Virus record (IMG/VR): IMGVR_UViG_3300044971_002795
Coordinates: 1 to 33,318 of that record
Direction: 5' to 3' (one strand)
Origin: a virus
Length of the DNA stretch: 33,318 bases
The translations under genes were made by a program, and so were the position numbers. The notes beneath the pieces were generated by a model, which worked only from the letters and a program-made list of their open reading frames with translations, had not been told where the DNA came from and ran no database searches. The number at the start of each line of letters is the position of its first letter. Positions within the stretch are counted from its first letter, which is position 1. Shown here in pieces: positions 8,764 to 32,290 of the stretch.

Positions 8764-9590
8764 TATTCTATAAAATCTTTAACAATCTTATTAAAAATAT
8801 CCGCTTTAATTTTAAGAGGATCTTCTTTAGTTTTCCAATTCTTTTTAGTATGCCAATTAGTTCCAGCCCTATAATGCAAAAACTTTCCTTCCAAGTGAAG
8901 TTCAAATTGAAATCCATCTTTTGGTTGAGACCACATATCAGGATTTAATAAAACAGGAATTTCAATGCCTTTATATTCTGTTGGATACTCTGGACAATCA
9001 TCCGCAGTAGTTCCACCTTCATTAATGTTTTTAAACTTTATATTATTTCTTTTAAAATAATAATGTAAAGAACCACCAGTATCTGTAGTTTCACCATCAA
9101 CAACACCATGAGAAAAATCTAAATTTGGATCAATACTCATGATTTTTTCCATATCAAAAAACATTATTCCGTTCCAAATATATCTGACTTGTCCTCTAAC
9201 TTGAAGATGACCTGCCACTATTTCTCCTTGCATGTATTCTTTTATTGAAAAATCTTCCAATAAAAACATGTCAGAATCTGTAAAAAATACTACTTCATTC
9301 GCGTGCTTCTTTTTAATAATTTCATCAAAAGTCCATTGAATTGTCTCATCTACATGGTCGGAACCCGAAATTGGAGCATCAAACTTTCTCTTTTCATCAA
9401 CAGGTTTTTTATAATAAACAATATTATATTTCTCTGCAATTTCTTTAAACTCTTTAGAAATATTATCATCAAGCGAATCATCAATTACATTAAATTGATA
9501 CTCATCTTTTAAAAATTTTTTAAAAGATTTTGCTTGAATTTCCAAAAAATCTGGTCTATTTACAACAGATGTAAAAATTTGAACTGTCAT
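8763..9590 (-). CDS. Putative GT-A glycosyltransferase (275 aa)
   Basis: Starts MTVQIFTSVVNRPDFLEIQ at ATG 9590, which forms ATGA with the upstream stop. A GT-A type nucleotide-sugar site is suggested by EVVFFTDSDMFLLEDF (DSD motif) after about 100 residues. Later features are GVVDGETTDTGGSLHYY and FLHYRAGTNWHTKK. I cannot assign a CAZy family. The operon position supports a role in assembling the same glycan. Confidence 0.7.
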   Translation of the reverse strand: MTVQIFTSVVNRPDFLEIQAKSFKKFLKDEYQFNVIDDSLDDNISKEFKEIAEKYNIVYYKKPVDEKRKFDAPISGSDHVDETIQWTFDEIIKKKHANEVVFFTDSDMFLLEDFSIKEYMQGEIVAGHLQVRGQVRYIWNGIMFFDMEKIMSIDPNLDFSHGVVDGETTDTGGSLHYYFKRNNIKFKNINEGGTTADDCPEYPTEYKGIEIPVLLNPDMWSQPKDGFQFELHLEGKFLHYRAGTNWHTKKNWKTKEDPLKIKADIFNKIVKDFIE

Positions 9591-10486
9591 TTTAGTTGTT
9601 CTCCGATCCATTCTTCAAGTTTTACTTTTGGTTCCCATCCAAAAGTTTTTTTAAATTTTTGATTGTTTGCAAGACTTATCCTTGCTTCCCCAGGTCTAGG
9701 GGAAATGTTAATTTTTTCATGATCAAATAATCTAGATATTTGATTAATAGAATAATTTGTTCCTGTTCCAATATTATAAACTTGTCCGAAAGAATCGGAA
9801 TCAACATCTTTAGTTGCTGCGAGGATGTTTGCATTTACAACATCACCAACATAAGTAAAGTCCCTTCGTTGGTTTCCATCACCAACAATGGTTAGAGGTT
9901 CTCCTGCTGCTCTCTGGCGAAGGAAAATACCAATCACAGGAGCATACTGTCCACGCAGAGGTTGGCGTTCTCCATAGACATTAAAGTAACGGAAACAAAC
10001 AGTTTGAAGACCATATAAATTGGTGTACATCTTACATAATTTTTCACCATTTACCTTTGAAACGGAATAAGGATTCAAACAATCATCAGGTTGAGTTTCC
10101 ACATTCGGCGTTTGATTCATTCCATACCCCGAAGACGTGGAAGAATACATTACACGTTTAACACCTGCTTCACGGGCACATTGAAGAACAGTTACAGTAC
10201 CAACAGAATTGATACTAACTGCTTCAATCGGATTTTGAATAGCAGGTTGAATACGTGCCTCTGCAGCAATGTGAAACACATAATCAACGCCATCATAGAG
10301 TGGACGTGTATTTTGATAATCACGAATATCGTACTTATAGTTTTGCGCATTATCATTCCAGTAAAAATGATCATGAGCATCAGAATACTCATTATCAATC
10401 ACAACAACTTCGTGACCAAGTTCAAGCAAACGATCTACAAGATTTGATCCAATAAATCCAGCACCACCAGTAACTAAACTTTTCAT
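9587..10486 (-). CDS. NAD-dependent sugar epimerase/dehydratase (SDR)
   Basis: A 299-aa extended SDR: GGAGFIGSN Rossmann motif at residues 7-15, and catalytic YSVSK preceded by SSTSSGYG. Ends in the WEP-type C-terminus (FGWEPKVKLEEW). It resembles UDP-glucose 4-epimerase and related nucleotide-sugar epimerases. It lies beside the heptose-phosphate genes, so a nucleotide-heptose or a hexose substrate is possible. I chose ATG 10486 because the Rossmann strand MKSLVTGGAGFIG begins there. Confidence 0.88.
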   Translation of the reverse strand: MKSLVTGGAGFIGSNLVDRLLELGHEVVVIDNEYSDAHDHFYWNDNAQNYKYDIRDYQNTRPLYDGVDYVFHIAAEARIQPAIQNPIEAVSINSVGTVTVLQCAREAGVKRVMYSSTSSGYGMNQTPNVETQPDDCLNPYSVSKVNGEKLCKMYTNLYGLQTVCFRYFNVYGERQPLRGQYAPVIGIFLRQRAAGEPLTIVGDGNQRRDFTYVGDVVNANILAATKDVDSDSFGQVYNIGTGTNYSINQISRLFDHEKINISPRPGEARISLANNQKFKKTFGWEPKVKLEEWIGEQLK

Positions 10487-10487
10487 T

Positions 10488-10901
10488 TTATCTCCAAGAT
10501 TTAACAATTTTTCTTTTTAACTCAGTAGTTGAATAATCATGTTCTCTATTAATAAAAATAATTTTTATAGGATTATCTTTTCCAGTATAGGATCCATTTT
10601 GATAATCATCACCTAAAAAACGAATATCATAATTGTTAAGATAGGATAAAAACGTATCTTCTACTTGATAAACTACGATATCGTCAATGTATTTAATAGA
10701 TTCCAAAATTTCTTTTCTGTCACTCAATGATTGAACTGGAGAAAGTTTATTTGATCGTTCTATAGATGGATCTTCATGAAGAGCAACAGTAAGATGATTA
10801 CAATATTCCCTACACTCCCTAAACATTCTAATATATCCAGGATGAATAAGATCAAATGCCCCAGCAATAATACCTTTACTTTTGGTTGACTCGCTGCCCA
10901 T
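10488..10901 (-). CDS. Cytidylyltransferase-like nucleotidyltransferase
   Basis: A 137-aa protein with GIIAGAFDLIHPGYIRMF, the HxGH-type nucleotide site in the variant form HPGY, and the C-terminal YSTTELKRKI in place of ISSTxLR. The family (TagD, HldE C-domain) attaches CMP or AMP to a sugar or polyol phosphate. In this cluster it probably activates a heptose 1-phosphate, but the nucleotide is unclear. Its ATG lies 142 nt inside the HAD gene in another frame, see the findings: the two could be one frameshifted fusion. Confidence 0.82.
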   Translation of the reverse strand: MGSESTKSKGIIAGAFDLIHPGYIRMFRECREYCNHLTVALHEDPSIERSNKLSPVQSLSDRKEILESIKYIDDIVVYQVEDTFLSYLNNYDIRFLGDDYQNGSYTGKDNPIKIIFINREHDYSTTELKRKIVKSWR

Positions 10902-11203
10902 TCTACTGCATTAACTGCTTTGTCATCAATAAAAATGTCTGCAGTTGGTTTGCAAAACATGGGAAACAGTTCATGATACTTATATCCCCATTCCGCTAAT
11001 TGGTTTTTAGTTAATTCGGTATGATCTATTCCAGATCCTTTTCCTCGTGCAGTTTGGAAAATGATATAATTTCCTTCATTGTACAAACGATTTACTTGCT
11101 CAACCATGAAAGGATACGGTTTAGCATTTAAGTAATCAGGTTTACCTTTTTGATTATTTGGCGTATAACAAAGAGTTCCATCAATGTCAAAACAATATCT
11201 CAT
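10760..11203 (-). CDS. HAD-family phosphatase
   Basis: Starts MRYCFDIDGTLCYTPNNQKG, the HAD motif I (DIDGT); FQTARG holds motif II; ADIFIDDKAVNAVEW holds motif IV with the two Asp. About 110 residues form the real domain; the last about 40 are a hydrophobic Leu/Ile-rich tail that is simply the out-of-frame reading of the nucleotidyltransferase gene. It may dephosphorylate heptose 1,7-bisphosphate (GmhB role), although GmhB is larger, and capsule phosphatases of this size are also known. The start overlaps the isomerase stop (ATGA). Confidence 0.82.
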   Translation of the reverse strand: MRYCFDIDGTLCYTPNNQKGKPDYLNAKPYPFMVEQVNRLYNEGNYIIFQTARGKGSGIDHTELTKNQLAEWGYKYHELFPMFCKPTADIFIDDKAVNAVEWAASQPKVKVLLLGHLILFILDILECLGSVGNIVIILLLLFMKIHL

Positions 11204-11703
11204 ACAACTCCATGAAGAAAAATTTGATGTACACATTCAACTACACCATAATCATTACTACTTATGTAGTAATTCCATAAAGCATTAGTTGCTAGTAAAC
11301 GAATACTATTATCAGAGTTAAATCCAGTTAATACTCCATAATCAACTTTATTATCTTCACACCACTTCAAACAGTTTAACATATTTTTTGATTCTCCACC
11401 AGAGCTCATAATTACTACAAGAGTATTATCTTCAACATAATATTCTAAAAATTTTTGGTAAGCATTTTCATAACCAAAATCATTCGTCAACATTGTTAGC
11501 ATAGAAGGATCGGAAAGAATAGAAACTTTCTTTTTATGAAACTTCATATAATCTTGAGAAATGTGAGAAGCTACAGAATTACTTCCTCCATTACCAAGAA
11601 TAATAATTCTTTCATGGGTATTAAATGCTTCTTTAAATTTTCTAAACTCATCACTAATATGAGCAGATTTAAGAGTTTTAATATATTCTTCAAATGGATT
11701 CAT
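11200..11703 (-). CDS. gmhA: Phosphoheptose isomerase (SIS domain)
   Basis: A 167-aa SIS protein: ILGNGGSNSVASHISQDYMK is the GmhA sugar-phosphate loop, then LTNDFGYENAYQKFLE and VIMSSGGESKNML. GmhA converts sedoheptulose 7-phosphate to D-glycero-D-manno-heptose 7-phosphate. It is slightly shorter than bacterial GmhA (about 190 aa). The gene is directly followed by the HAD and nucleotidyltransferase genes and preceded by the GHMP kinase, the expected order for a nucleotide-heptose route. Sedoheptulose 7-phosphate is plentiful in the pentose phosphate pathway, which the phage also touches through gnd. Confidence 0.9.
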   Translation of the reverse strand: MNPFEEYIKTLKSAHISDEFRKFKEAFNTHERIIILGNGGSNSVASHISQDYMKFHKKKVSILSDPSMLTMLTNDFGYENAYQKFLEYYVEDNTLVVIMSSGGESKNMLNCLKWCEDNKVDYGVLTGFNSDNSIRLLATNALWNYYISSNDYGVVECVHQIFLHGVV

Positions 11704-12647
11704 ATTTTACGTCCAGAAACACCTTCGGATGATACATTTATTTTAACAGCATGATGAGGTATATTTAAATTATTTTTTTCAGAAAATACTAAGAAAAATC
11801 CCCCATTTCCAGCACCACAGAGTTTATGAGATAAAACAGTATTATTTTCATATAATTCTTTATCTATATTTTTGATTACTTCATTTTCAACAATTATAGA
11901 ACTTGTCTTTTTTTTCTCTTCCCACGATTTATTCAATAATTCAAATATTTTAAAATGATCATTATTGACAATAGCATCGTATGCTTCGTCAACAATTGGA
12001 AGTAAATTTTTTACTTTTTCTAAGTTATCATTCACATCCTTCAAAACATTTTTAGAATTTCTAGTAACACCAGTAAATACCAAGTGCATGTCAAAGGGAT
12101 CAAAAAATGATGATGGAAGATAATCATATGTTACTCTATCATTTGGATAGAATTCAATTCGTTTAAATCCTCCTACTCCACACCCAAAAGGATCTTGATA
12201 ACCACAATAAGGATTAAATTTTCTTTCCAACTTATATGCAAGAGAGCAGATTTCAACATCTGATAAAGATTTATCCAAGAACATGCATACAGATTTTATC
12301 AAACTAATAATATATGAAGATGATGAAGCCAATCCACTTCCTTGCGAATAAGCATCTCCGAATAAATTAATTTGAACCGGACCAATATTAAAATGCTCCA
12401 GAACAACTCTTATAACTTCGTTTTTAATATCAGAAACTTTACAAACATCCTCTCTATTTGAATAGTTTAATCGGTACTTATGATCTAAATTATTAACTCC
12501 AAAAATATCTCTACCTAAAGTAACATAAGTTTTCAAATTTGAAGCAAAACTAATAACAGATCCATATCCATATTTTTCAACAAAATATGGACTATCAGTT
12601 GATCCACCAAACAAAGAAATCCTAAGAGGGCAATATGAAATATACAT
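11700..12647 (-). CDS. hddA: GHMP-family sugar kinase, HddA-like
   Basis: A 315-aa kinase starting MYISYCPLRISLFGGSTDSP, the GHMP motif 1 typical of HddA and fucokinase-like enzymes. The ATP loop is QGSGLASSSSYIISLI; the C-terminal LCGAGNGGFFLVF is GHMP motif 3. HddA phosphorylates D-glycero-D-manno-heptose 7-phosphate at C1. The ATG overlaps the upstream stop (TAATG). With gmhA beside it, heptose is the most likely substrate; another sugar kinase role is less likely. Confidence 0.85.
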   Translation of the reverse strand: MYISYCPLRISLFGGSTDSPYFVEKYGYGSVISFASNLKTYVTLGRDIFGVNNLDHKYRLNYSNREDVCKVSDIKNEVIRVVLEHFNIGPVQINLFGDAYSQGSGLASSSSYIISLIKSVCMFLDKSLSDVEICSLAYKLERKFNPYCGYQDPFGCGVGGFKRIEFYPNDRVTYDYLPSSFFDPFDMHLVFTGVTRNSKNVLKDVNDNLEKVKNLLPIVDEAYDAIVNNDHFKIFELLNKSWEEKKKTSSIIVENEVIKNIDKELYENNTVLSHKLCGAGNGGFFLVFSEKNNLNIPHHAVKINVSSEGVSGRKI

Positions 12648-13315
12648 TAATAAATTTTTTCTGGCAAAAATAACTGAGGTATATATGAAAAACATTCCAT
12701 TGTTCTTTGTGATGAAAGTTTTTCATAAGTTACTTTTTGATTTCCATCAGAACTAGTTTGGTAAAAATATGGATCATCTATAGCATAAACATTAAAAAAC
12801 CTTTGAAGTTCTGCATATTGAATATCAAAAAAACTTTCAATAATATATCCAGCATGATAGGATGCACGTCTACATATTTCTACCCAGTCTGGAGTCAAAT
12901 ATACTATAGCATGTCCTCCAAGCATGTTATAAACTCTAACGATTTTTTCATCAATATGCTTCCATTGCACAAACGGACCAGAGTGCCCATTCATTCTACC
13001 CCATCCAGATATTCCCAAATACAAGGCATCAGCATCATCAGGAATTTCTATAATCGGATCCCAATTTTTAACATCAATATCATCTTCAACTATGACAAAA
13101 GGACCACTAGTAATATTATGTAAAAAATCACTCACTGTTCTGGCACATCCAGCAAATCCATTTGAGTGTAAAGTTGCATCTAATCTATGAAATTCTTTAA
13201 TACCTAAAGATTTAAATAAACTCTCAACATTTTTTTTCCTTTGTTCATCTCGTTTGAGATTAATATAATAAAAAGGTATTTCTCTAAGATCTAATTTCAT
13301 TACCATCGTATCCAT
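12647..13315 (-). CDS. GT25-like glycosyltransferase (222 aa)
   Basis: FYYINLKRDEQRKKNVESLF is the GT25 start motif, and GPFVIVEDDIDVKNW holds the acidic metal site. It is divergent: the TSHLKA-type segment is replaced by GFAGCARTVSDFLHN. ATG 13315 is given; ATG 13300 (MKLDLREIPFYY) is possible and would leave a better leader after the extended -10 at 13325-13333. It probably adds one sugar in the shared glycan. Confidence 0.8.
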   Translation of the reverse strand: MDTMVMKLDLREIPFYYINLKRDEQRKKNVESLFKSLGIKEFHRLDATLHSNGFAGCARTVSDFLHNITSGPFVIVEDDIDVKNWDPIIEIPDDADALYLGISGWGRMNGHSGPFVQWKHIDEKIVRVYNMLGGHAIVYLTPDWVEICRRASYHAGYIIESFFDIQYAELQRFFNVYAIDDPYFYQTSSDGNQKVTYEKLSSQRTMECFSYIPQLFLPEKIY

Positions 13316-13342: not shown

Positions 13343-14458
13343 TTAAACTGTTCTTATGACATTCATTTCTTCCATTTTTTTGTTAGTTTGCTCAATAATA
13401 TCGTCCAATAAATCAATACCACTTAACCATTTTTTATACTCATTAACACTATCATGTATTGACCTTTTTGGTTCCCATCCCAAAGATCTAAGTTTAGAAA
13501 TATCAGAAACTATATGGCGGGTATCACCAAATCTATATCTGCCAGATGGTTTAGGAATATAGTTATCATATCCAAAAATACTAGCAACTACTTTAGCAAA
13601 TTCATTGATAGTTATTGGTAAACCTCCACCAACATTAAACATTTCATAGTTTGCCCTTTCATCATTCATTACTAAAATATTTGCATCAACAACATCATGG
13701 ATATTTACAAAATCCCTAACTTGATTACCATCTTCATAAATTTGAGGTTCTTTTCCCTGATAAAAAGAAAGTGAAAAAATTCTACAAGCACCGCTATAAG
13801 TATTATAAAAACTTTGTCTAGATCCTTGAACAATAGAATATCGCATAGCAACAGAAGGTATTTCATACCTTTTACCTAAAAATAATGCAAACATTTCTTC
13901 AGATATTTTACTCATTCCGTATGGATTTTGAGGATTAGATATAGTTTCATCAGTTTTCGTCCACTTAATAGGAGGATTAAAATTAGATGGACAATCTAAT
14001 TCCCAAATACCTTGTTTAAGATCAGAATCTTTTCTCATGTCAGGAAGAAATTTTTTACCATCTGCATCCAAATACAATCCTTCCCCCAAGGTTGCTTGAC
14101 TACTAGCAACTATAACTTTTTTAATTGGTATTTTGTAATTATAAATCAATTCATATATCTTTGCAGTTGAAGAAACATTTACATCAACAAATTTACTAAA
14201 GATTGGCAAATAATCTTGAAAGGCAGCAAAATGAAATATAACATCACATCCCAAAATAGATTGCAACAAAATTTTTTCATCATTGACATTACCATATATA
14301 AATTCTATTCTAGAATCTAAGTATGATGGAACTATTTTATTTTTATGAACTGGTTCTTCTAAACTATCAAGAACACGAACAGAATGTCCTTCACTCAAAA
14401 GACGATCTGCAGTGTGAGATCCTATAAATCCAGCTCCGCCAGTTATTAAAACTTTCAT
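13343..14458 (-). CDS. NAD-dependent epimerase/dehydratase (SDR, 371 aa)
   Basis: Extended SDR with GGAGFIGSHTADRLL at residues 7-21, active-site SSQATLGEG and YGMSK, and a WEPKRSIHDS end. It carries an unusually long insert between the Ser and Tyr motifs (about residues 125-175, with KKFLPDMRKDSDLKQGIWEL). It resembles UDP-sugar epimerases and CDP- or GDP-sugar modifying enzymes. Substrate not assignable. The spacing to the GT6 gene is 5 nt. Confidence 0.85.
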   Translation of the reverse strand: MKVLITGGAGFIGSHTADRLLSEGHSVRVLDSLEEPVHKNKIVPSYLDSRIEFIYGNVNDEKILLQSILGCDVIFHFAAFQDYLPIFSKFVDVNVSSTAKIYELIYNYKIPIKKVIVASSQATLGEGLYLDADGKKFLPDMRKDSDLKQGIWELDCPSNFNPPIKWTKTDETISNPQNPYGMSKISEEMFALFLGKRYEIPSVAMRYSIVQGSRQSFYNTYSGACRIFSLSFYQGKEPQIYEDGNQVRDFVNIHDVVDANILVMNDERANYEMFNVGGGLPITINEFAKVVASIFGYDNYIPKPSGRYRFGDTRHIVSDISKLRSLGWEPKRSIHDSVNEYKKWLSGIDLLDDIIEQTNKKMEEMNVIRTV

Positions 14459-14463
14459 TATAA

Positions 14464-15162
14464 TTAATTTCTTAGTTCTGAGTGATTTTTTTTCAAAGCA
14501 ATTATTTTAGGTTCGTAAGGATAATTAGAATTTTCATAAAATTCTTCAGCCCAACAATAAGATGGTGTTAAACTTAAAGAGGGTTTATTATCAATAAGAT
14601 ACCTGTTCATTTGGGATTCATCATGCCATAAAGCGATAACTCCATTCTCAAGATCTTTATTTACACGGTCTGCAATGATTTCAGACATTTTAATAAATTC
14701 TTCAGTCGTTCCGCCGTTGAATCCACCAGCATAATAATTTTCCCCTTCATGACCGAATGGAACATATGCTAATGATTTTGGATTTCTATCATAAGATCTT
14801 TGTTCCTTTGGATAGAAAGATTGATATGGGTGCATAGTAGCAACTATGCCATCAGTTAAAATTTCATCTCCAACAGAATTATCAATTCTCATATCAGCAT
14901 CAAGATAAAAACAATAATCATGCTGGAGAATAAAATCTTTCTCTTTTACAAAATAATTATATCTTTTTAAAGTTGGCATTGGCCATGGTTCATGGTCAAT
15001 ATAATGAACTTTTATATTATCAGAAGTTTCAACTTCATGATCGGTAAACAACAAACAACTAATTTCATGTCCATTTAAAAAATTTTCCTCAATAGAATCA
15101 TACAGTTTTTCAACAAACTGAAGATATTTGTTTGTAGCAATGGTTAATATACAGATTTTCAT
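14464..15162 (-). CDS. GT6 glycosyltransferase (ABO histo-blood-group type)
   Basis: A 232-aa GT6 catalytic domain without a membrane anchor. Diagnostic segments in order: FYLDADMRID (DXD metal site), YYAGGFNGGTTEEF, IALWHDESQMNRYL, TPSYCWAEEF, and the end ALKKNHSELRN, closely like the human A/B transferases. GT6 enzymes transfer Gal or GalNAc alpha-1,3 to a galactose, in ABO enzymes one carrying alpha-1,2-fucose. A GT6 is already known from cyanophage P-SSM2. Many bacterial GT6s have NXN; here DXD is kept. Two GT11 genes nearby could make the fucosylated acceptor. Confidence 0.93.
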   Translation of the reverse strand: MKICILTIATNKYLQFVEKLYDSIEENFLNGHEISCLLFTDHEVETSDNIKVHYIDHEPWPMPTLKRYNYFVKEKDFILQHDYCFYLDADMRIDNSVGDEILTDGIVATMHPYQSFYPKEQRSYDRNPKSLAYVPFGHEGENYYAGGFNGGTTEEFIKMSEIIADRVNKDLENGVIALWHDESQMNRYLIDNKPSLSLTPSYCWAEEFYENSNYPYEPKIIALKKNHSELRN

Positions 15163-16540: not shown

Positions 16541-17402
16541 TTATAATCTCCATTAATTTTTTTACAGATGCTTTAAAGGATAATTCCTTTTCAATATATT
16601 TTTTAGGGTTATATGAATTTATTTTAGCACAGAATTTAGAAAAAGAAAATTCCATATCATTTTCATTATAAAAAACTTCACCACATTCATTAGACCAATA
16701 AGGAACAGAAGATGCAGGAACTCTGTATTCTTCACCTTGATCTAACCATTCTTCAACATCCCAAACAAATAAAGGGGTGTTTGATTGCATTATTTCTTGA
16801 ACTGCGATTCCCTGGCTTTCCGTTCCGTTTACCAAAAAACAAAACTTACACTGTTCTAATAATTCTTTTAATTTACTCTCATCATAATTGCCATAAGAAA
16901 TTATAGTATAAGTAAGATTATTTTTTTTCAGTAATTGTATAGATTTTTCAAGATCCTCATCATTTCTTCTTTTAAAATAAATTAAACAATCATATGAAAT
17001 ATTTTTATTGATCGCAAATTCCTCAATCCCAACTGGCCATATTGAAATTTTATCAGGAGTAACATCAAACTTTGTAATAAGTTTATTCTTGACCCACAAA
17101 GAAGGAACTATTAATTTATTATAATACTGAGGATTTTCAATTAAAAACCTACCATATGGGCAGAATGGCCAAAACTGTGGTCCAATAAAACAAGTTTCGT
17201 GTTCTAGTGTTTCATGAATTTTATATTCACGCTCAGAATAATCCAATAATAGATTTTTTTCGTAAACATTTTTATTAATTACATACTCAATACCATTTTC
17301 ACTCAAAGATTTCTTTAAATTTTTTCTTACTTTCAGAGGTCCACATGTTTTACCGTTCTGTAGGTAAGAGTATGCATTTTCATCATACCATATATTAATC
17401 AT
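16533..17402 (-). CDS. GT-B (GT4-like) glycosyltransferase
   Basis: A 289-aa protein from ATG 17402 (MINIWYDENAYSYLQNG), which forms ATGA with the upstream GT11 stop. The C-terminal Rossmann half has NGTESQGIAVQEIMQSNTPL, matching the E-x7-E nucleotide-sugar motif of GT4-type enzymes, and ISIWPVGIEEF at the domain junction. It is shorter than usual GT4 proteins (about 370 aa). Donor unknown. Confidence 0.82.
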   Translation of the reverse strand: MINIWYDENAYSYLQNGKTCGPLKVRKNLKKSLSENGIEYVINKNVYEKNLLLDYSEREYKIHETLEHETCFIGPQFWPFCPYGRFLIENPQYYNKLIVPSLWVKNKLITKFDVTPDKISIWPVGIEEFAINKNISYDCLIYFKRRNDEDLEKSIQLLKKNNLTYTIISYGNYDESKLKELLEQCKFCFLVNGTESQGIAVQEIMQSNTPLFVWDVEEWLDQGEEYRVPASSVPYWSNECGEVFYNENDMEFSFSKFCAKINSYNPKKYIEKELSFKASVKKLMEIIND

Positions 17403-18202
17403 AAAACAATCCACTCATTTAAATATAAATCTTGATAATATTTATTGGTATCTAAACCCCCTGCCCATTTTTTAGGTGCTATAGTTTTTTTACTTTTTGC
17501 TAACCACGATCCCCACCAACTGAAAGAACTATTAGCAATAATATGATATTTGCACATAGTCTGTAGACAAAGATCTACGCCAGTATTATTGTCTTCAGAA
17601 AATAAAAATCTATCGTGAGAAAATATTTGTTGATTTTTACACCACTCAATATCATCAGAAAATATTAAAACTGGATTATTGTTAGGAAAATATTCTAGAG
17701 ATTTTTTATAATAATTTATATCTTGAATAGGGTGAACATCGGGGCAATTCAAATAATCGGTTCTACGAACATGCAAAGAAATAACATCAGAAATTCCAAA
17801 ATTTTCTTTAAAAAATTGTTTACATGGATCTAGTATGTCATCTACAAATGTAAATGCATTTCTAATTTCATTTTCAGCATTTTCAAAATAAGTTTTAAAC
17901 TGATAATATCCAAACAAATTGATATTATTTGGGCATTTATCCCAAATATAATTATGAAATTCGTTTGGTGGTTCCATTAATAATGGATAATTGGTAATTT
18001 TATATTCTACTTCTGGAAGATTAAAACATTCGTATAAAGTTATATCTGTATTTTTTACTTTAGAATCGTACAGACCAAATACGGACCTTGGTGGTAAACA
18101 ATATTCATAGTTGTGTTTTTTTGCTATTCCCCGAAGACTTGCATATTGAAACATTTGATTTCCAAGTCTACCAAGATTTCCAAGTTTGTCAAAAGAAATC
18201 AT
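17399..18202 (-). CDS. GT11 family alpha-1,2-fucosyltransferase-like
   Basis: A 267-aa GT11 protein: GNLGRLGNQMFQYASLRGIA at the N-terminus, VISLHVRRTDYLN (HxRRxD donor motif), PVLIFSDDIEWCK and IIANSSFSWWGSWLA. GT11 enzymes transfer L-fucose from GDP-fucose in alpha-1,2 linkage; bacterial members can also transfer colitose (WbgN of E. coli O55). It is paired with a second GT11 directly upstream, with ATGA overlaps on both sides, downstream of a GDP-fucose/colitose pathway. Confidence 0.92.
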   Translation of the reverse strand: MISFDKLGNLGRLGNQMFQYASLRGIAKKHNYEYCLPPRSVFGLYDSKVKNTDITLYECFNLPEVEYKITNYPLLMEPPNEFHNYIWDKCPNNINLFGYYQFKTYFENAENEIRNAFTFVDDILDPCKQFFKENFGISDVISLHVRRTDYLNCPDVHPIQDINYYKKSLEYFPNNNPVLIFSDDIEWCKNQQIFSHDRFLFSEDNNTGVDLCLQTMCKYHIIANSSFSWWGSWLAKSKKTIAPKKWAGGLDTNKYYQDLYLNEWIVL

Positions 18203-18993
18203 ACTCTAATCCACCCATCAACATATAAATCACTAGCATTTATCGGATTAGAATCTGGGTTCCATAAAGAAGGAATAAAAATTTTCTTTGCATTTGACAA
18301 GTATGCTCCCCACCAACTATAAGTACTATTAGCAGTAATTACATAATCACACAAAGACATGAGGCACAAATCAATATATGGGTCATTAACTTCAGAAACT
18401 AAAAATCTATCTTCAGAAAAAAGATCTTGCTTTTTACACCATTCAGGTTCATCAGAAAAAATTAAAACTTTACAAGTTTTTGGTAAATCAAGTAAACATT
18501 TTTCATAGTAACTCATATCTTGAGAAACATGATTATTATTGGTAACAAAATCCGTTCTTCTAATATGAATTCCGACCAACTCAGAGTTATCACTAAGTTG
18601 AGTTTTTAAATCAGAAGCAATATCGTAATATTCAGATTTGAACTGAAAATCTTTTTTAATTTGATCATCAATATGCTTAAACCATTTATCAGATTGAAAG
18701 AATCCCAAAAGATCAACATTTCCTTTAGGTGGATTCTCATAAGTTTCTTTATCAAAATGAAAATGCCGTTCTTCATGTATTGGGAAATCACTAATTCCCC
18801 TAGAGCAATTAATATTAAAACAATCGTCAATATTACTTCTTAAAGTGGTATAATAATATTTACCAAAAACATCTTTTGGGGGTATCATAAAATCCCTATT
18901 GTGTTTAATAGAAAGAGATTTAATTGCAGAATATTGAAACATTTGATTTCCCAAATGCCCATGATTACCTAAACGATTAAAAGAAAAAGTCAT
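18199..18993 (-). CDS. GT11 family fucosyl/colitosyltransferase-like
   Basis: A 264-aa GT11 protein: LGNHGHLGNQMFQYSAIKSL, VGIHIRRTDFVTN, KVLIFSDEPEWCK and VITANSTYSWWGAYLS. It is clearly paralogous to the next gene, but diverged along its length, so the two may use different donors or acceptors. The ATG overlaps the ColD-like gene stop (ATGA). With GDP-fucose and GDP-colitose both possible products here, one transferase per sugar is a reasonable inference, not shown. Confidence 0.92.
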   Translation of the reverse strand: MTFSFNRLGNHGHLGNQMFQYSAIKSLSIKHNRDFMIPPKDVFGKYYYTTLRSNIDDCFNINCSRGISDFPIHEERHFHFDKETYENPPKGNVDLLGFFQSDKWFKHIDDQIKKDFQFKSEYYDIASDLKTQLSDNSELVGIHIRRTDFVTNNNHVSQDMSYYEKCLLDLPKTCKVLIFSDEPEWCKKQDLFSEDRFLVSEVNDPYIDLCLMSLCDYVITANSTYSWWGAYLSNAKKIFIPSLWNPDSNPINASDLYVDGWIRV

Positions 18994-20153
18994 AATTGCT
19001 TAAATGTATTCTCCAGAAGATTCAATTCTTTATCACCAATAAAATGATTGTTACCCAAATAAATCCCATTATCATGAACAAAATCAACAGTCAAAGTATC
19101 TTTGTTACTAGTTACACTATAACCTTTCAAGAATGGTTGTCTTAATAGATTCCCACTTATAATTGGACGGTGTTCTATACCAACTTCAACAAACTTCTTC
19201 CTCAAATCATCTGCTATTTCTTTTGTTTTGCAAATTAAAGGAAAACAAAAATTACTACATGTAGGATAATATTTTGGAGCAATAAATTTATCAGGATATT
19301 TTTTAATGAGTTCTATAAAATTAATATAATTTTTGTTTCTAATTTCAATATACTTATCTAACCTTTTGAGTTGAGATAGTCCAAGAACCGCACCAAGTTC
19401 ATGATTTCTAAAATTATACCCGTCAGTTACAAATAAAAACTGATCTGAAACATCTGGATATTTTTGAGCATACTCTTTATGTTTTGTAGATTCTCTTGCA
19501 AGTCCATGACTTCTCTTCATTCGCATGAGATCATACAATTCATAATTGTTAGTGGATACCATTCCACCTTCAATAGTAGACATATGGTGTCCAAAGTAAA
19601 AACTGAATGTAGAACCTAAACTATCGGATCCACGACGAGTTCCATCTGGAGATTTGCATCCATGAGATTCACACACATCATCCAGTATCAAAGCATTTGG
19701 AAATAAGTTTTTATACCGTTCATTATTCGCAGAAAATCCAATTAAGTGTGTAACAAAAATTAGTTTAATGTCAGGATGTTCTTTGGAAATGTATTCGAGA
19801 TCTTCTTCACAAAAACTAAAATTATTAATATTAATATCACAAAAAATAGGAGTAAATCCTAATTGAATAACTGGTCCAATATTAGTAACCCAAGTACAAG
19901 AAGGAACTAATACTTTATCCCCATCTTTCAATCCGTATAGTTCTTTAACTGCAGATAGTAATAGATAATTTGCGGTACTTCCAGAAGAAACATAAAGTGA
20001 ATATTTTGCACCTAACCATTTACTCCATTCATCTTCAAACTTCCTAACCATTTTACCATTAGTAAAACGATCAGAAGTCAGAACAAACTTTGCAAGATTA
20101 AACCTATCACCAAAGGTGATATTGTTTTTCATCAAAGGCCATTTAAATTGCAT
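18990..20153 (-). CDS. colD: GDP-4-keto-6-deoxymannose 3-dehydratase (ColD-like)
   Basis: A 387-aa PLP protein of the DegT/DnrJ/EryC1 fold (E. coli ColD is 388 aa). The usual PLP Lys is replaced by His: FSFYFGHHMSTIEGG, His189, as in ColD, where this His drives 3-deoxygenation instead of transamination. Asp159 (LILDDVCESHG) would hold the pyridine nitrogen. Other ColD-type segments are VEVGIEHRPIISGNLL and DNGIYLGNNHF. It lacks the extra Cys cluster of the CDP-sugar E1 enzymes. Start ATG 20153 ([10 protein letters not shown]) gives an 11-nt overlap with fcl. With Gmd upstream and an Fcl/ColC-type reductase, GDP-L-colitose is the likely product. Confidence 0.88.
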   Translation of the reverse strand: MQFKWPLMKNNITFGDRFNLAKFVLTSDRFTNGKMVRKFEDEWSKWLGAKYSLYVSSGSTANYLLLSAVKELYGLKDGDKVLVPSCTWVTNIGPVIQLGFTPIFCDININNFSFCEEDLEYISKEHPDIKLIFVTHLIGFSANNERYKNLFPNALILDDVCESHGCKSPDGTRRGSDSLGSTFSFYFGHHMSTIEGGMVSTNNYELYDLMRMKRSHGLARESTKHKEYAQKYPDVSDQFLFVTDGYNFRNHELGAVLGLSQLKRLDKYIEIRNKNYINFIELIKKYPDKFIAPKYYPTCSNFCFPLICKTKEIADDLRKKFVEVGIEHRPIISGNLLRQPFLKGYSVTSNKDTLTVDFVHDNGIYLGNNHFIGDKELNLLENTFKQL

Positions 20154-21072
20154 TTTTCTTATACCATTCGTAAGTTTTCTCAATACCTTCACGAAGACCA
20201 ATTTTTGGTTCCCATCCCAAAGATTTAATTTTATCTACATTCAATACTTTACGAGGAGTCCCATTTGGTTTACTAGTATCCCACTTAATTTCTCCTTCAT
20301 AACCAACAACATCAGAAATTGTTTGAGCAAGTTCTTTGATTGTCATGTCTTCACCTGTACCAACGTTGATATGTTCAGGTTCATTATAGTTTTGCATACA
20401 CATATAACATGCTTCTGCAAGATCATCAACATGGAGAAATTCTCTCATAGGTGATCCATCCCCCCAACATTCTACTTGAGAAGAATTCAATTTTTTTGCA
20501 TCATGAAATCTAGAAATAAATCCAGGAAGAACATGTGATGTTGCTAAATCAAAATTATCATTAGGACCATAAAGATTTGTAGGCATCAAAGAGATAGCAT
20601 TAAATCCATGCTGTTCCCGATATGCTTGGCACATCTTCAGACCAACTATTTTTGCCAATGCATAAGCATCATTTGTTGGTTCCAGGGGACCACTCATTAA
20701 CTGATCTTCAGTAATTGGTTGAGTTGCAAATTTTGGATAAATGCAAGAAGACCCAAGAAAAAGAAGTTTTTTAACACCAAACTTATAAGCAGTGTCAATA
20801 ATGTTTGTTTGAATCTGAAGATTTTCTTTTAAAAAATCTGCTTTACTACTATTATTTGCCATAATGCCACCAACTTTAGCGGCAGCAACAAATACATATT
20901 CAGGTCTTTTATCTCTAAAAAAGTTTTTAGTTTCTTCTTGATCTGTAAAATCTACAAAATATCTAATACCTTTAATGATATTTTTGTATCCTTTATTTTG
21001 GAGATTTCTCGCAATTGCTGATCCAACCATACCATGAGCACCAGCAACTAATACTCTTGAATTATTGTCCAT
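20143..21072 (-). CDS. fcl: GDP-L-fucose synthase (WcaG/Fcl) or ColC-type
   Basis: A 309-aa [40 protein letters not shown] (the Ser of the catalytic triad), [20 protein letters not shown] (YxxxK), and LPTNLYG-like [13 protein letters not shown], all standard for GDP-fucose synthase. The enzyme epimerises and reduces GDP-4-keto-6-deoxymannose. ColC, which finishes GDP-colitose, belongs to a related SDR group, so with colD beside it either product is possible. Start ATG 21072 overlaps gmd by 11 nt. Confidence 0.93.
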
Positions 21073-22063
21073 AAATGCACATATCCTCAACAAGTTGTTC
21101 AAATGAAATTTTAGGTTCCCAACCTAACTTTTGTTTTGCCTTTGTGGCATCACCTAATAAGGTTTCTACTTCAGCAGGACGAAAATATTTAGGACTTACT
21201 TTAATAACGGTTCTTTTAGTAAGTTTGTCAATACCAACTTCATCAATACCTTCACCCTCCCAAGCAATACTCATTCCAAAATATGGTGCTGCTTTTTCAA
21301 CAAACTCACGTACTGAGTATTGCTCTCCTGTGGCAATTACATAATCATCTGGTTCATCCTGCTGGAGCATCAACCACATCGCTTCTACAAAGTCTTTAGC
21401 ATGACCCCAGTCACGTTTTGCATTCAGATTCCCGAGATATAATATATCTTGTCTCCCAGTTGAAATAGATGATAATCCGCGAGTGATTTTTCTTGTGACA
21501 AAAGTTTCTCCTCTTCTAGGGGATTCGTGATTGAAAAGAATTCCAGAACTTGCATGTAGTCCATATGACTCTCTGTAGTTTTTGACGATCCAATATCCAT
21601 AAACTTTTGCAACTCCATAAGGTGAGCGGGGATAAAACGGCGTAGTTTCTGATTGAGGAATTTCTTGAACCTTACCAAACATTTCCGAAGTTGATGCTTG
21701 ATAAATTCGTGTTTTGTTTTCCATCCCCAATAAACGAACTGCTTCAAGAATACGAAGAGTTCCCAATCCATCAGTCTGACCAGTATATTCTGGAACTTCA
21801 AAAGACACTTTTACATGACTTTGGGCACCAAGATTATATATTTCATCTGGTTGAACTTGCTGAATAACCCTTACAAGGTTGGTAGAGTCAGTAAGATCAC
21901 CATAATGAAGTTTAATTTGATCATAGATATGATCAATCCTATGCGTATTAATTAACGAAGCACGTCGAATAATGCCGTGTACTTCATATCCTTTTTCTAG
22001 AAGTAATTCTGCAAGATAAGATCCATCTTGTCCAGTAATTCCAGTTATCAGTGCAGTTTTCAT
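21062..22063 (-). CDS. gmd: GDP-mannose 4,6-dehydratase
   Basis: A 333-aa extended SDR with [20 protein letters not shown] at the N-terminus, [25 protein letters not shown] (YxxxK), [19 protein letters not shown] and [20 protein letters not shown], all characteristic of Gmd. It makes GDP-4-keto-6-deoxy-D-mannose, the branch point for fucose, colitose and other deoxysugars. Shorter than E. coli Gmd (373 aa) but with no missing core motif. The ATG overlaps the halogenase stop. Host GDP-mannose is presumably the substrate source, as no manB/manC is seen here. Confidence 0.96.
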
Positions 22064-23220
22064 GCCAATTCTTTTCTTAAATATTGGGATAATTTTTCAT
22101 CAACAAATCTCCATGGAGATTTTCCAGAATTAATAATTTTAGTCAAATTATGATTTTCTATAAAGTTTTTACTTTTTTCTTTACAAGATTTCCAATAATA
22201 ACTATCATATACTGACCCATTTTGATAATGGTAGTTTATTAAATGTATGACTTCTTCCATCAAAGAAAGATATGAATTATTAATTTCATTTTTATTTCCA
22301 TATCCTTCAATATAAGAGACTATTAAATCATTAACAATCTCAAAACATTCCATAGAAGTTGCTTGCAATGGTTCAAAGAAGAATAATGAATTTCCGTTTT
22401 TTATTATATTTTTATTTTCAGTTATTAATTTTTTCCTATAAAAACTTTTAAAAGTATAGTCCATATGCTTGTCAAAGTCAATATCAGGATAACTAACTAC
22501 ATTATCAACATTTCTAGGATTTTTAAATATATCTTTCATATTATCCAATGCTTCTTCCTTAGAAATAAATCTATTATCATACAGATATCCCCAATTTTGC
22601 TTATCCATCAAAGGAATACCAAACATCCATCCATATTGATGTGCATAATGATAAGTAAATTGCCAATTACCAGGTTTTTTTGAAGAGCAGACTATTGCAG
22701 AATTTACATAGATATTGTCCACAAAACATGCATCATCATAATTTTCAGAAAATCCTCTACAATCAATCAAATAATCAAAAACATAAACATCATTATCCAG
22801 TATAACTTCAACATGAGAATCTTTTGACGTAAATTTGGAAACATTTCCATGCTTGACAAAAAATCTTTTAGGATACTCTTTAGAAAATATAGGTAATAAA
22901 AATTGCCTAAGCTCCCTATTATTAAAATGTATTCCATAATTTCCAGCAGGAAATCTAGAATAAAAATCTTCTTTTTTCCAATTAGTAAAAGTAACTTGAT
23001 GCTTGAATGTACATCTTAAATTATGAAAATGCTGATCAACATTAAACCCTATAGAATTATAAAGATTGTTTGGAAATCCAAGAAGTGTAGATTCCCCGAC
23101 ACAAATTATATCAATATTTGGATCATATAATAGATAAATATCAGCATTTTTTATAGAACTAAGCAATGAAGATACTGTTAAAAGACCTGCAGTTCCTGAA
23201 CCAATAATTCCAATTTTCAT
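22060..23220 (-). CDS. Flavin-dependent tryptophan-halogenase-like protein
   Basis: A 386-aa FAD protein. [17 protein letters not shown] is the FAD loop, [10 protein letters not shown] matches the halogenase GEAT region, [11 protein letters not shown] keeps the catalytic Lys (Lys73), YGWMFGIPL is a WxWxIP variant with Phe for the second Trp, and [16 protein letters not shown] matches FEPL. It is shorter than free-Trp halogenases (about 500 aa), especially at the C-terminus. Related proteins occur in other cyanophages; their substrate is unknown. A flavin reductase partner is not seen. Location in a glycan operon suggests an unusual substrate or a non-halogenating role. Confidence 0.85.
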
Positions 23221-29474: not shown

Positions 29475-30941
29475 TCAGAACTTAAAGGTTGTCTGAATTA
29501 CCCCACCCCAGTTGGAGGAGTTGTCAGCAAGGCGCTGATTGTCGCTACCGTAGATGATAGCAGGAGTGACGCTGATGTTATCAGATACTTGATACTTGTA
29601 GAAGATTTCAAGAAGAGTGGACTTCTCAAGATTTTCACCAGTAGGTGCTTGACCGATAGCAACACCAGCAGAGTTACCATCAACAAACACATCATCCCAG
29701 GTCAGACCAGCAAACCATGACTGACTGTTAGTAGCAGCACTTTGAGTACCACTCACAGTGTTCCAACCATAACCACCAGAGATAGAAGGAACAATACCTG
29801 ATTTCTGAGGTTGCCAGTAAGCATTCAGTGCATAACCGTTAGAAGTTTGCCCAGGAACTAGAGCACCAGAAGCACCATTCAGACCGTTGTAGGTGCGAAC
29901 ACGAGTACCTTCAGTACCATAACGATAACCGAATGCAGCACCCCAGTTAGTACCACGATAACCGATTTGTGCAAGAGTATTCAGAGCACCAGTCTCATCA
30001 AACACTCCAGTTTCACTATCATTACCACTTTGAGCAACATAGTTTACACCAGCAATAAGACCTTTCTTACCATACTGAGCACCGAAACCAGCACCAGTTG
30101 CTTTGTTGTAAACACCAGGAGCACCAGCAACAGCAAAGAAGTCAAGAATACCAGACTTATAAGCAGAAGGCATCCAAGCAATCTCAGTGTTACGAACAGC
30201 AGCACCAGCAGTCAGAGTTGCTTTGTTATTAAAAGCAGGGAACTGATAGAACAGGCGGTCAATCACTACGTTGTTACCAACTTCACTGGTGGTGTTATCT
30301 GCCTTATCCAGCTTGAACAGAGAAGAACTAGAACCGAAAGGATCACCACTAAAGTTAGATGAACGCAGACGAGTACGAAGCAGATCCTTACCAGTGAACG
30401 AAGTGTCCAAATTCAGACGGAGATCGTAGTTAAATGCAGTATGAGTTACATCACCACCTTTGGTACGATAGTCATCAACGCCACCAAGAACAAAGTTTGC
30501 TTCACCACGGAGTTTGGTAGTAGTGGAGAACTGAGTTGCTTCCAGAGAAGCAACTTTAGTTTCCAGGTTTGCAACCTTACCTTGAATAACGGTAAGTTCA
30601 TCACGGAACTCATTAGCAAGGCGCTTGAGTTCATCAGTTTGCTCAGTTACGCGATCAAGGCAAGCATTCAGAAGTGCTGCTGCCTCATAACGGGTCATAG
30701 CACGTCCACCACCAAAGGTGCCGTTAGGATAACCAGCAACGCAACCATAACGCTCTACAAGGTTGCTGAGTGCTTGATACGCCCAATCACTAGGTTGCAC
30801 ATCAGAAAGTTGCGAAACGCTTGTAACCTGCTCTGTGGAGTATTGATTGACTGCTGACATATTAAGATCTGCAGCATTAGCAGCAACAGGAGCAACCATT
30901 CCCAGAGCAACAGGTGCAAGCATCAGTTGTTTGAGTTTCAT
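29475..30941 (-). CDS. som: Som-type outer-membrane porin with SLH domain
   Basis: A 488-aa protein with a signal peptide (MKLKQLMLAPVALGMVAPVA, cut near ANA-AD), an SLH domain at about residues 43-95 (DVQPSDWAYQALSNLVERYG, YPNGTFGGGRAMTRYEAAAL), a coiled coil about 100-135 and a C-terminal OprB-like beta barrel ending in Phe (TTFKF). This is the standard build of cyanobacterial Som porins, in which the SLH domain grips peptidoglycan-linked polymer. Length is in the host range (about 450-550). Codon use is GC-richer than the glycan genes, consistent with host origin. It has its own promoter, structured leader and terminator. A phage copy could change nutrient uptake or phage re-adsorption. 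Confidence 0.94.
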   Translation of the reverse strand: MKLKQLMLAPVALGMVAPVAANAADLNMSAVNQYSTEQVTSVSQLSDVQPSDWAYQALSNLVERYGCVAGYPNGTFGGGRAMTRYEAAALLNACLDRVTEQTDELKRLANEFRDELTVIQGKVANLETKVASLEATQFSTTTKLRGEANFVLGGVDDYRTKGGDVTHTAFNYDLRLNLDTSFTGKDLLRTRLRSSNFSGDPFGSSSSLFKLDKADNTTSEVGNNVVIDRLFYQFPAFNNKATLTAGAAVRNTEIAWMPSAYKSGILDFFAVAGAPGVYNKATGAGFGAQYGKKGLIAGVNYVAQSGNDSETGVFDETGALNTLAQIGYRGTNWGAAFGYRYGTEGTRVRTYNGLNGASGALVPGQTSNGYALNAYWQPQKSGIVPSISGGYGWNTVSGTQSAATNSQSWFAGLTWDDVFVDGNSAGVAIGQAPTGENLEKSTLLEIFYKYQVSDNISVTPAIIYGSDNQRLADNSSNWGGVIQTTFKF

Positions 30942-31084: not shown

Positions 31085-31156
31085 AGCGGGGTATCGGAAT
31101 CGAACCGACGACATCTAACTTGGAAGGATAGCGTTCTACCGCTGAACTAACCCCGC
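31085..31156 (-). tRNA. tRNA-Gly(TCC)
   Basis: 72 nt; acceptor GCGGGGT/ACCCCGC, anticodon loop CTTCCAA, discriminator U typical of Gly. Confidence 0.95.
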
Positions 31157-31205
31157 AAAGTGGGAGATTTCTCTCCCAGCACATTTCCTTCACACGGATA
31201 GGAAA

Positions 31206-31234
31206 AGTATAAGACATAATTAATATTATGTCAA
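31206..31234 (-). promoter_or_regulatory. sigma70-like promoter before tRNA-Gly
   Basis: Minus strand: TTGACA (31234-31229), 17 nt, TATACT (31211-31206). The first T of the -35 is the discriminator base of tRNA-Thr. A hairpin TGGGAGA/TCTCCCA (31160-31177) lies before tRNA-Gly. Confidence 0.75.
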
Positions 31235-31306
31235 GCCCCCGACAAGACTTGAACTTGCGACAACCGCTTTACAAAAGCGGTGCTCTACCAGCTGAGCTAC
31301 AAGGGC
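31234..31306 (-). tRNA. tRNA-Thr(TGT)
   Basis: 73 nt; acceptor GCCCTTG pairs with CGGGGGC (two G-U), anticodon loop TTTGTAA, T-loop TTCAAGT. Confidence 0.93.
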
Positions 31307-31504
31307 GAAAGGTAGTGAGTGTCCACCACCCGCAGGAGACACTTCCTGCGATTTTTACTGCATTAGAAGGCAGTGATAAGAGAAAACACCAAACCTTATT
31401 CTTCCTGTCTTCAGGAACGCACCAAATGGGTTGGGAGACTCTAGAGATTTTACCTCCGAAGTTTGTCCAGCATTTTCAATTTGAAAGAACTTATGCCCTT
31501 CCAA
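31307..31504 (-). other. 198-nt hairpin-rich gap in the tRNA array
   Basis: No gene or tRNA fits. Hairpins: CGCAGGA/TCCTGCG (31331-31350) followed by T5 on the plus strand, ACTGC/GCAGT just after it, and TTCCTG/CAGGAA further on. It could be a decayed tRNA region or a small structured RNA. The T-run lies on the strand opposite to all genes. Confidence 0.4.
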
Positions 31505-31576
31505 CTCCACAACCTGGATTCGAACCAGGGACCAAATGATTAACAGTCATCTGCGCTACCGCTGCGCCATTGTGGA
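31505..31576 (-). tRNA. tRNA-Asn(GTT)
   Basis: 72 nt; acceptor TCCACAA/TTGTGGA, anticodon loop CTGTTAA, discriminator G. Confidence 0.95.
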
Positions 31577-31584
31577 ATAAGTTG

Positions 31585-31702
31585 TCCCAGTATAAGGATT
31601 CGAACCTTAAGTTTTTTAGTCACCTACCTCAGGAGATTAACTCCCTTCTGGAATGCGGGGGCACCACCCGACCACATGACCGTTACCTACGGCGTCACTG
31701 GG
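31585..31702 (-). tRNA. Aberrant long tRNA-like element, anticodon unclear
   Basis: The ends are tRNA-like: acceptor CCCAGTG/TACTGGG, D-arm GCCG-TAGGTAA-CGGT, T-arm TAAGG-TTCGAAT-CCTTA, discriminator A. Between D and T arms are 69 nt instead of the usual 23-40: an ATGTG/CGCAT stem with a 15-nt loop and a long variable part holding GGAG/CTCC. It may be an expanded, interrupted or decaying tRNA; no standard anticodon can be set. Confidence 0.5.
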
Positions 31703-31773
31703 AAGATATAGATGGAGTAAGCGTGATATACCTCATAAGGATATAACAGAGGCTTACCCTCTATCAGTATTAT

Positions 31774-31802
31774 ATAGTAACAAACTCCGAAGAATTTGTC
31801 AA
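31774..31802 (-). promoter_or_regulatory. sigma70-like promoter within the tRNA array
   Basis: Minus strand: TTGACA (31802-31797), 17 nt, TACTAT (31779-31774), starting 2 nt past tRNA-Arg. Confidence 0.65.
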
Positions 31803-31803
31803 G

Positions 31804-31875
31804 CACCCTGAGGAGGATTTGAACCACCGTCTTCTTCGTTCGTAGTGAAGCACTCTTCCACTGAGTTACCAGGGC
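31804..31875 (-). tRNA. tRNA-Arg(ACG)
   Basis: 72 nt; acceptor GCCCTGG/TCAGGGT with terminal G-U pairs, anticodon loop CTACGAA; mismatches at the loop-closing A-C pair and mid T-stem. A34 would need conversion to inosine. Confidence 0.85.
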
Positions 31876-31881
31876 ATTTGG

Positions 31882-31953
31882 CGAAGGGTGAGGGATTTGA
31901 ACCCCCATCGCAAGGTTTTGGAGACCTGCATCTTACCATTAGACTAACCCGAC
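31882..31953 (-). tRNA. tRNA-Trp(CCA)
   Basis: 72 nt; anticodon loop CTCCAAA, T-loop TTCAAAT, D-arm GTCT/AGAT. The acceptor (GTCGGGT with ACCCTTC) has two mismatches, so it may be degenerate. Confidence 0.85.
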
Positions 31954-31956
31954 TGG

Positions 31957-32028
31957 TTCTGAGGGTAGGATTCGAACCCACGAATGGCGGGACCAAAACC
32001 CGCTGCCTTACCACTTGGCGACCTCAGA
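31957..32028 (-). tRNA. tRNA-Gln(TTG)
   Basis: 72 nt; acceptor TCTGAGG/CCTCAGA, anticodon loop TTTTGGT, T-loop TTCGAAT. Confidence 0.94.
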
Positions 32029-32032
32029 ATGG

Positions 32033-32103: not shown

Positions 32104-32104
32104 A

Positions 32105-32178: not shown

Positions 32179-32182
32179 AAGG

Positions 32183-32272: not shown

Positions 32273-32290
32273 TAGTTTCCCTTACGGGAA

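Follow-up and report, generated by a model that had tools for sequence, protein, structure and literature searches.

Colitose is a rare sugar that amounts to fucose minus one oxygen (3-deoxy-L-fucose). For ColD of bacteria, the available part of a published account (PMC8987622) describes a mechanism that uses pyridoxamine phosphate (PMP) and glutamate, and ascribes a [2Fe-2S] cluster to E1 and SpnQ, not to ColD. Among phages, an excerpt of the description of S-SCSM1 interprets its gmd-fcl pair as GDP-L-fucose synthesis (PMC9602691), and a cyanophage gene table in an excerpt of another paper lists fcl, gme, and rmd (PMC10436341). Here, we examined a virus record of 33,318 bases (IMG/VR IMGVR_UViG_3300044971_002795; the whole stretch is called the window below), in which a minus-strand operon runs, in order, gmd (GDP-mannose 4,6-dehydratase), a short-chain dehydrogenase/reductase (SDR), a pyridoxal phosphate (PLP) enzyme, and two GT11 glycosyltransferases (GT11a and GT11b). 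From sequence and predicted structure we consider it probable that this operon encodes a phage GDP-deoxysugar pathway with a ColD-type branch, making GDP-L-colitose beside or instead of GDP-L-fucose.

The window would belong to a cyanophage, given its two photosystem II D1-family genes, one 6-phosphogluconate dehydrogenase, and 19 tRNA genes; an IMG/VR contig in our locus set with the same proteins (L004; 99-100% identity across the stretch compared) is the window's own sequence. The three genes that the original prediction had located at 18990-22063 are indeed intact minus-strand Gmd, SDR, and PLP enzyme open reading frames, all complete (333, 309, and 387 amino acids), and consecutive genes of the operon overlap throughout (gmd/SDR and SDR/PLP by 11 nt each, PLP/GT11a and GT11a/GT11b by 4 nt each). 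The family assignment of Gmd is firm, with 565.9 bits against a cut-off of 415 for NCBIfam TIGR01472 and an E value of 2.2e-156 for PF16363. A GT6 glycosyltransferase and further sugar genes lie downstream of the operon.

Pfam places the PLP enzyme in the DegT/DnrJ/EryC1 family, yet the position of the Schiff-base lysine is occupied by a histidine, His189. This substitution had been noticed in the original prediction, along with Asp159 and the motifs FGHHMSTIEGG, GIEHRPIISGNLL, and NGIYLGN, and every one of these features is found in the open reading frame. We compared it across a viral set of 83 loci, made up of the window, two phage records, and 80 IMG/VR loci; the latter are the top 80 among 220 relatives scanned, so that the set, chosen by likeness, leans toward the window. 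His189 and Asp159 are identical in 83/83 aligned viral sequences (70 distinct), whereas three lysine aminotransferases in the alignment carry Lys at the His189 column, and the histidine is therefore not a chance substitution. Realigning with 14 genome-search rows removed left the His column unchanged. The residue mutated to Asn or Lys in the ColD entries 3b8x, 2r0t, and 3gr9 of the Protein Data Bank (PDB) aligns with His189 of the window, and His188 is the residue named in the titles of 3b8x and 3gr9. ColD is also the best PDB sequence match (2gms, 1.3e-53), followed by a putative NDP-sugar 3-dehydratase (8.5e-30), E1 (9.8e-29), and perosamine synthase (1.9e-22), and it leads the fold comparison made with an AlphaFold model (pLDDT 93.8): ColD 2gms_A reaches Z 49.3 (rmsd 2.1, 31% identity over 375 residues), with E1 (Z 45.6) and GDP-perosamine synthase (Z 43.6) as runners-up. 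Where three RfbH rows share three conserved Cys columns in an insert region, the window has R, a gap, and K. The PLP gene is under purifying selection, with dN/dS of 0.07-0.13 against six relatives. Together, these comparisons support the PLP enzyme being a relative of the His-type sugar 3-dehydratases, nearest to ColD.

Phylogeny places the enzyme next to ColD and outside it. The tree held 62 rows, left from an earlier 84-row set after 16 viral rows and six that were long or otherwise odd had been removed; PLP trees were rooted on lysine aminotransferases (two to three rows only), with six genome-search loci left out and eight others entered as larger stretches. The phage enzymes group with a number of bacterial and archaeal relatives in a clade of 37 rows (support 99/98), sister to a ColD clade (15 rows, 100/100); the two join at 96/85, or at 96/95 when five deeper ColD-like rows are added, and this joint group stands apart from three RfbH and two Lys rows. 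The two Lys rows and the His rows lie on opposite sides of one branch (100/97). Forcing the phage enzymes into a clade with RfbH cost 22.5 log units and was rejected (p-AU 0.012), and a ColD plus RfbH clade was 19.7 log units worse (p-AU 0.022). In the 62-row tree the phage enzyme does not lie within the E. coli ColD clade, the 37 and 15 rows each falling on one side of a branch, and we therefore term it ColD-like. The original prediction of a ColD-type 3-dehydratase thus holds as to nearest relative by sequence and fold and as to the near-constant Gmd partner described below, and has to be loosened to a sister clade; the placement it had named as counting against it, among aminotransferases that keep the lysine, did not occur with the two to three such rows in the trees. 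A contig from a Crocinitomicaceae metagenome-assembled genome (L084) also sits inside the viral clade and may be a misbinned virus.

The neighborhood of the gene points to its substrate. In the viral set gmd is present in 80/83 loci, on the same strand and within 2.5 kb in 76, and in two of the three loci without it the PLP gene lies no more than 0.6 kb from a contig end. We also sought RfbF and RfbG, the CDP-glucose partner genes, and found them in 0/83 viral loci; control RfbH-type loci (L135, L164, L165, and L137) carry both. The partner SDR is Fcl-like in 65 viral loci, replaced by a GDP-mannose 3,5-epimerase-like SDR without Fcl in 11, and neither in four loci with gmd, so that linkage to gmd is retained even where the other partner gene differs. 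Of 15 cellular loci related to the phage clade (L084-L098), 11 have gmd, some in other gene orders, and bacterial gmd-linked ColD-clade loci show the order gmd-SDR-ColD in 7/7 and in 4/4 further ones. With gmd so near-constant a partner, the proposal that Gmd supplies the substrate of the PLP enzyme stands. The scan of genomes for PLP relatives returned 15 loci, none titled cyanobacterial, by exact peptide patterns, so that absence from hosts is not shown. The loci that pair gmd and a ColD-like gene with an epimerase-like SDR (L022, L024, L025, L027, L038, and others) possibly make a different dideoxy or L-sugar. Two more loci (L063:7227-7991 and L069:7213-7995) encode, between gmd and the ColD-like gene, a protein with cytidylyltransferase-like and mannose-6-phosphate isomerase C-terminal domains; the survey of these and of the epimerase-like pairings took in 14 of 19 loci.

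The partner SDR shares 51% identity with E. coli Fcl and 37% with one bacterial ColC. It retains the Ser-Cys-Tyr-Lys-His set common to Fcl and ColC (Ser107, Cys109, Tyr136, Lys140, and His179 in E. coli Fcl numbering, which we take to have the catalytic roles), carries a YALAK motif, and scores 463.7 bits on the Fcl model NF047922 (cut-off 500), where the Fcl of P-SSM2 scores 462.4 and two bacterial ColC proteins 310.2 and 310.1. In a tree of 68 SDR rows, bacterial ColC forms its own clade (seven rows, 99/95), one phage clade unites 22 SDRs that all have a ColD-like gene (100/97), and the window SDR falls in another phage clade of 30 rows (100/97). ColC is named here by gene position, as the records call these SDRs GDP-L-fucose synthase. 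By descent, as read from this tree, the SDR is a GDP-L-fucose synthase (Fcl), and its identification as a true bacterial ColC is rejected. Of the original "Fcl/ColC-type" label the first half is thereby kept; since the SDR is Fcl by descent, its suggested role in finishing GDP-L-colitose is put forward conditionally, and the enzyme may also yield GDP-fucose. Another phage SDR type has a ColD-like gene in 45/50 loci (within 1.5 kb in 37), and four of its five loci without one have less than 1.3 kb of downstream DNA. Presence of a ColD-like neighbor changes on SDR trees at least five times by well-supported branches, and 12 times in a larger set, from which it follows that Fcl operons gained or lost the gene on several occasions.

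One residue of the SDR correlates with this neighbor. Leucine at E. coli Fcl position 138 occurs in 67/88 SDRs with a ColD-like neighbor vs 0/56 phage SDRs without, a count that keeps L084 among the 88 and leaves out L021, neighborless SDRs with less than 1.3 kb downstream, exact duplicates, matches that were short or broken, and SDRs whose distance to the PLP gene exceeded 1.7 kb. The window SDR has this leucine, as do 10/11 bacterial ColC, a hint that Leu138 could be an adaptation of the partner SDR. An alternative mark of colitose-type SDRs, "SAC" (Ser108 to Ala), was rejected, as it marks one phage clade and not ColC.

We propose that the pathway would run as follows. Host GDP-mannose would be converted by Gmd to GDP-4-keto-6-deoxymannose. 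The His189 enzyme, in which PMP would be bound with no internal lysine aldimine, would strip the hydroxyl from C3 of this product, yielding GDP-4-keto-3,6-dideoxymannose, and be recharged by glutamate, as ColD is. The Fcl-type SDR would then perform C5 epimerization and C4 reduction to GDP-L-colitose, or, absent prior deoxygenation, form GDP-L-fucose, and during infection one or both GT11 enzymes may attach the sugar to a glycan of the surface or the virion. A strong case for 3-deoxygenation by the PLP enzyme comes from its homology, its fold, its active site, and its linkage to gmd; the final SDR step and colitose as the end sugar we infer.

Several observations weigh against this pathway. 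Identity between the PLP enzyme and ColD is low (about 31-32%), and of the 49 columns that tell gmd-linked ColD and RfbH apart, the viral rows side with ColD at 17, with RfbH at 8, and with neither at 24. No gmd is seen in 4/15 of the cellular relatives or, in the stretch read, in 7/14 ColD-clade loci, so the substrate cannot be read from likeness to ColD alone. The neighbors of the latter (L133 and L151-L156), several of them near weak matches to RfbF, a nucleotidyltransferase, suggest that the ColD family may have other substrates; in L133, from Azospirillum, the enzyme adjoins genes for thiamine-dependent enzymes. The viral loci with an epimerase-like gene or neither SDR beside gmd have no Fcl-like SDR. 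Within the SDR clade of the window, 18/30 rows have no ColD-like neighbor, nor do 73/80 of the nearest viral Fcl loci, 68 of which have at least 1.3 kb of downstream DNA. The Leu138 column was chosen post hoc, after data inspection, and its correlation was not significant on tree-independent pairs (median p 0.0625 and 0.125), the trend never being reversed. Leucine is also present in 7/50 bacterial Fcl without a ColD-like neighbor, a sample of 30 returned loci (nearly all the closest E. coli Fcl matches) and 20 hand-picked lower ones in which a ColD-like gene beyond about 1.5 kb would escape detection, and we rejected Leu138 as a sequence mark of colitose-type SDRs, since it correlates and is not diagnostic. 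Finally, GT11 is an inconstant partner: 26/83 viral loci have one no further than 2 kb from the PLP gene. Within 4 kb flanks it was found in 5/7 loci with and 31/73 without a ColD-like gene in the Fcl scan, and in 3/45 with and 0/5 without for the other SDR type; GT11 presence does not follow the ColD-like gene uniformly.

Among alternatives, the one that survives best accepts 3-deoxygenation by the PLP enzyme and supposes that Fcl makes only GDP-L-fucose, with another phage SDR or a host reductase yielding a different GDP-3,6-dideoxyhexose. The Fcl descent of the SDR, two further sugar SDRs in the window (9587-10489 and 13343-14458), and the loci with epimerase-like SDRs are in keeping with such a route. 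We nevertheless judge it unlikely: the window Fcl gene overlaps gmd and the PLP gene alike, loci of another SDR type usually include the PLP gene, the equivalent slot of the shared gene order is filled in bacteria by ColC, which is distantly related to Fcl, and, because L-colitose is 3-deoxy-L-fucose, the same 5-epimerization and 4-reduction as for fucose suffice by established chemistry. That the PLP enzyme is instead an unusual aminotransferase, such as a GDP-perosamine synthase minus its lysine, would fit its Pfam family, the aminotransferase labels of PHROG 3139 and a RefSeq record, and the shared fold of perosamine synthases, which act on the same substrate, GDP-4-keto-6-deoxymannose. It is very improbable, with a histidine for the Schiff-base lysine in every viral copy, a supported branch parting Lys from His rows, and a far weaker sequence score for perosamine synthase than for ColD; lysine aminotransferases proper (perosamine synthase, ArnB, and PseC) were rejected on that residue.

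Less credible again is the reading that follows the annotation of S-CAM7, an E1/RfbH-type 3-dehydratase acting on CDP-sugars. The best NCBIfam match of the PLP enzyme is indeed the RfbH model NF011936, at 160.9 bits under a cut-off of 423, but this match is nondiscriminating, because a gmd-linked ColD-clade protein (L130) also best matches that model; the tree, the lack of insert cysteines in the window, and viral neighborhoods with gmd and without RfbF/RfbG led us to reject this type. Another cyanophage, S-B43 (L099), encodes a second His-type dehydratase, which is RfbH-like and has three Cys in its insert region; within the 13 kb read, nothing matched gmd, RfbF, or RfbG. That the gene is a decaying or nonfunctional passenger, for which we found nothing beyond its patchy presence beside Fcl, is scarcely conceivable in view of an intact, overlapping operon and its low dN/dS.

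If GDP-L-colitose is made, the operon also offers candidates for its transfer. GT11 is the family of alpha-1,2-fucosyltransferases, and GT6 that of the ABO blood-group A/B transferases. According to an excerpt of one study (PMC11987014), the GT11 enzymes WbgN of E. coli O55 and human FUT2 each used GDP-colitose and GDP-fucose, and one transferase set could therefore serve both sugars. We tentatively suggest, while holding it rather doubtful, that the ColD-like gene acts as a one-gene switch, repeatedly gained or lost by phages with Gmd, Fcl, and GT11, that would turn an H-like (fucose alpha-1,2) determinant into a 3-deoxy (colitose) one, perhaps extended by GT6, and so alter recognition of the infected cell or virion by other phages, grazers, or enzymes, with the partner SDR repeatedly adapting to the deoxygenated substrate through the leucine between its catalytic Tyr and Lys. 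GT6 genes have been noted in two cyanophages (PMC3961637, in the part available). At the left end of the window, a collagen-like Gly-X-Y open reading frame (3-341, minus strand) runs off the record, near a 594-amino-acid protein with a GT25 domain (899-2683, minus strand). Since GT25 includes collagen glycosyltransferases, the collagen-like fiber itself could be a glycan acceptor.

Features of the proposed pathway and its codons of interest in the window
Feature	Position	Strand	Basis
gmd, GDP-mannose 4,6-dehydratase (GDP-mannose to GDP-4-keto-6-deoxymannose)	21062..22063	-	NCBIfam TIGR01472, PF16363
SDR, Fcl type; proposed 5-epimerase/4-reductase finishing GDP-L-fucose and/or GDP-L-colitose	20143..21072	-	Fcl identity, tree, YALAK motif
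ColD-like PLP/PMP enzyme, proposed GDP-4-keto-6-deoxymannose 3-dehydratase	18990..20153	-	PDB match, fold, tree
His189 codon of the PLP enzyme, aligned with catalytic His188 of ColD	19587..19589	-	Alignments
SDR Leu139 codon (E. coli Fcl position 138), between catalytic Tyr and Lys	20656..20658	-	Correlation with ColD-like neighbor, suggestive only
GT11 glycosyltransferase a, candidate colitosyl/fucosyl transferase	18199..18993	-	PF01531 5.5e-28; same slot in ACG-2014f, S-CAM7
GT11 glycosyltransferase b	17399..18202	-	PF01531 1.4e-28
GT6 glycosyltransferase, possible next step on a fucosylated or colitosylated acceptor (putative role)	14464..15162	-	PF03414 6.2e-38

Other minus-strand genes accompany the operon. 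A run at 9587-12695 encodes an HddA-like GHMP kinase, a GmhA-like SIS protein, a HAD-like protein, an RfaE/TagD-type nucleotidyltransferase, and an SDR, and is likely a nucleotide-heptose cassette by sequence likeness; it matches as a run in L013, L041, L049 (incomplete), and L072, and in L021 without a close SDR match. A porin-like protein (29475-30941) combines an SLH domain with an OprB-like barrel, as found in cyanobacterial outer-membrane porins, and has no PHROG match at 1e-4. Sixteen of the tRNA genes are clustered at 31085-33133. Directly upstream of gmd, and overlapping its start, lies a tryptophan-halogenase-like flavoprotein (22060-23220; PF04820, 1.6e-30); halogenase-like genes are reported in 20/153 cyanophages in the available part of one source (PMC10452541).

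Were this pathway confirmed, cyanophages would hold a dideoxysugar pathway known from bacterial O-antigens, phage sugar metabolism would be widened from fucose to 3-deoxyfucose, and there would be a role for two GT11 genes and a GT6 gene in one phage, as well as a testable reason, surface-sugar rewriting, for lipopolysaccharide-type clusters in phages. Known phages suit such tests, because S-CAM7 and ACG-2014f are recorded as isolates and Synechococcus WH 7803 is the host in one S-CAM7 record.

The described systems each share part of this arrangement. With ColD (2gms, 3b8x, 2r0t, and 3gr9) the phage enzyme has in common the fold, the catalytic His column, Asp159, Trp88, the GIExRPI-GN and NG-GN motifs, gmd linkage, and the absence of Cys at the RfbH insert columns, but it is phage-borne, forms a separate sister clade at about 31% identity, and has an Fcl-type partner SDR. 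That SDR resembles ColC in its place between gmd and the dehydratase, its Ser-Cys-Tyr-Lys-His set, and Leu138, and differs in lying outside the ColC clade and closer in identity to E. coli Fcl. E1/RfbH shares the fold and the His for Lys, and differs in its insert cysteines, CDP-glucose gene partners, and clade. WbgN, an alpha-1,2-colitosyltransferase, belongs to the same family as the phage GT11 enzymes.

Among phages, P-SSM2, S-SRM01, S-SKS1, and S-SCSM1 have related gmd and fcl genes overlapping by 8-11 nt with glycosyltransferases nearby, but no ColD-like gene in the stretches read. The Synechococcus phages ACG-2014f and S-CAM7 carry gmd-SDR-PLP-GT11 in identical order with the His conserved, though their PLP enzyme is 55-58% identical and their SDR lies outside the clade of the window SDR; their PLP genes are labeled hypothetical protein, aminotransferase, or CDP-4-keto-6-deoxy-D-glucose-3-dehydrase. 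The gene set is thus not unique to the window. The original prediction knew of no such description in a phage, and in the open-licence literature we likewise found no phage colitose or ColD pathway, although homologous genes had been deposited in cyanophages under other names: what the window carries would be a phage version of a known pathway, one that recurs in other phages under those names.

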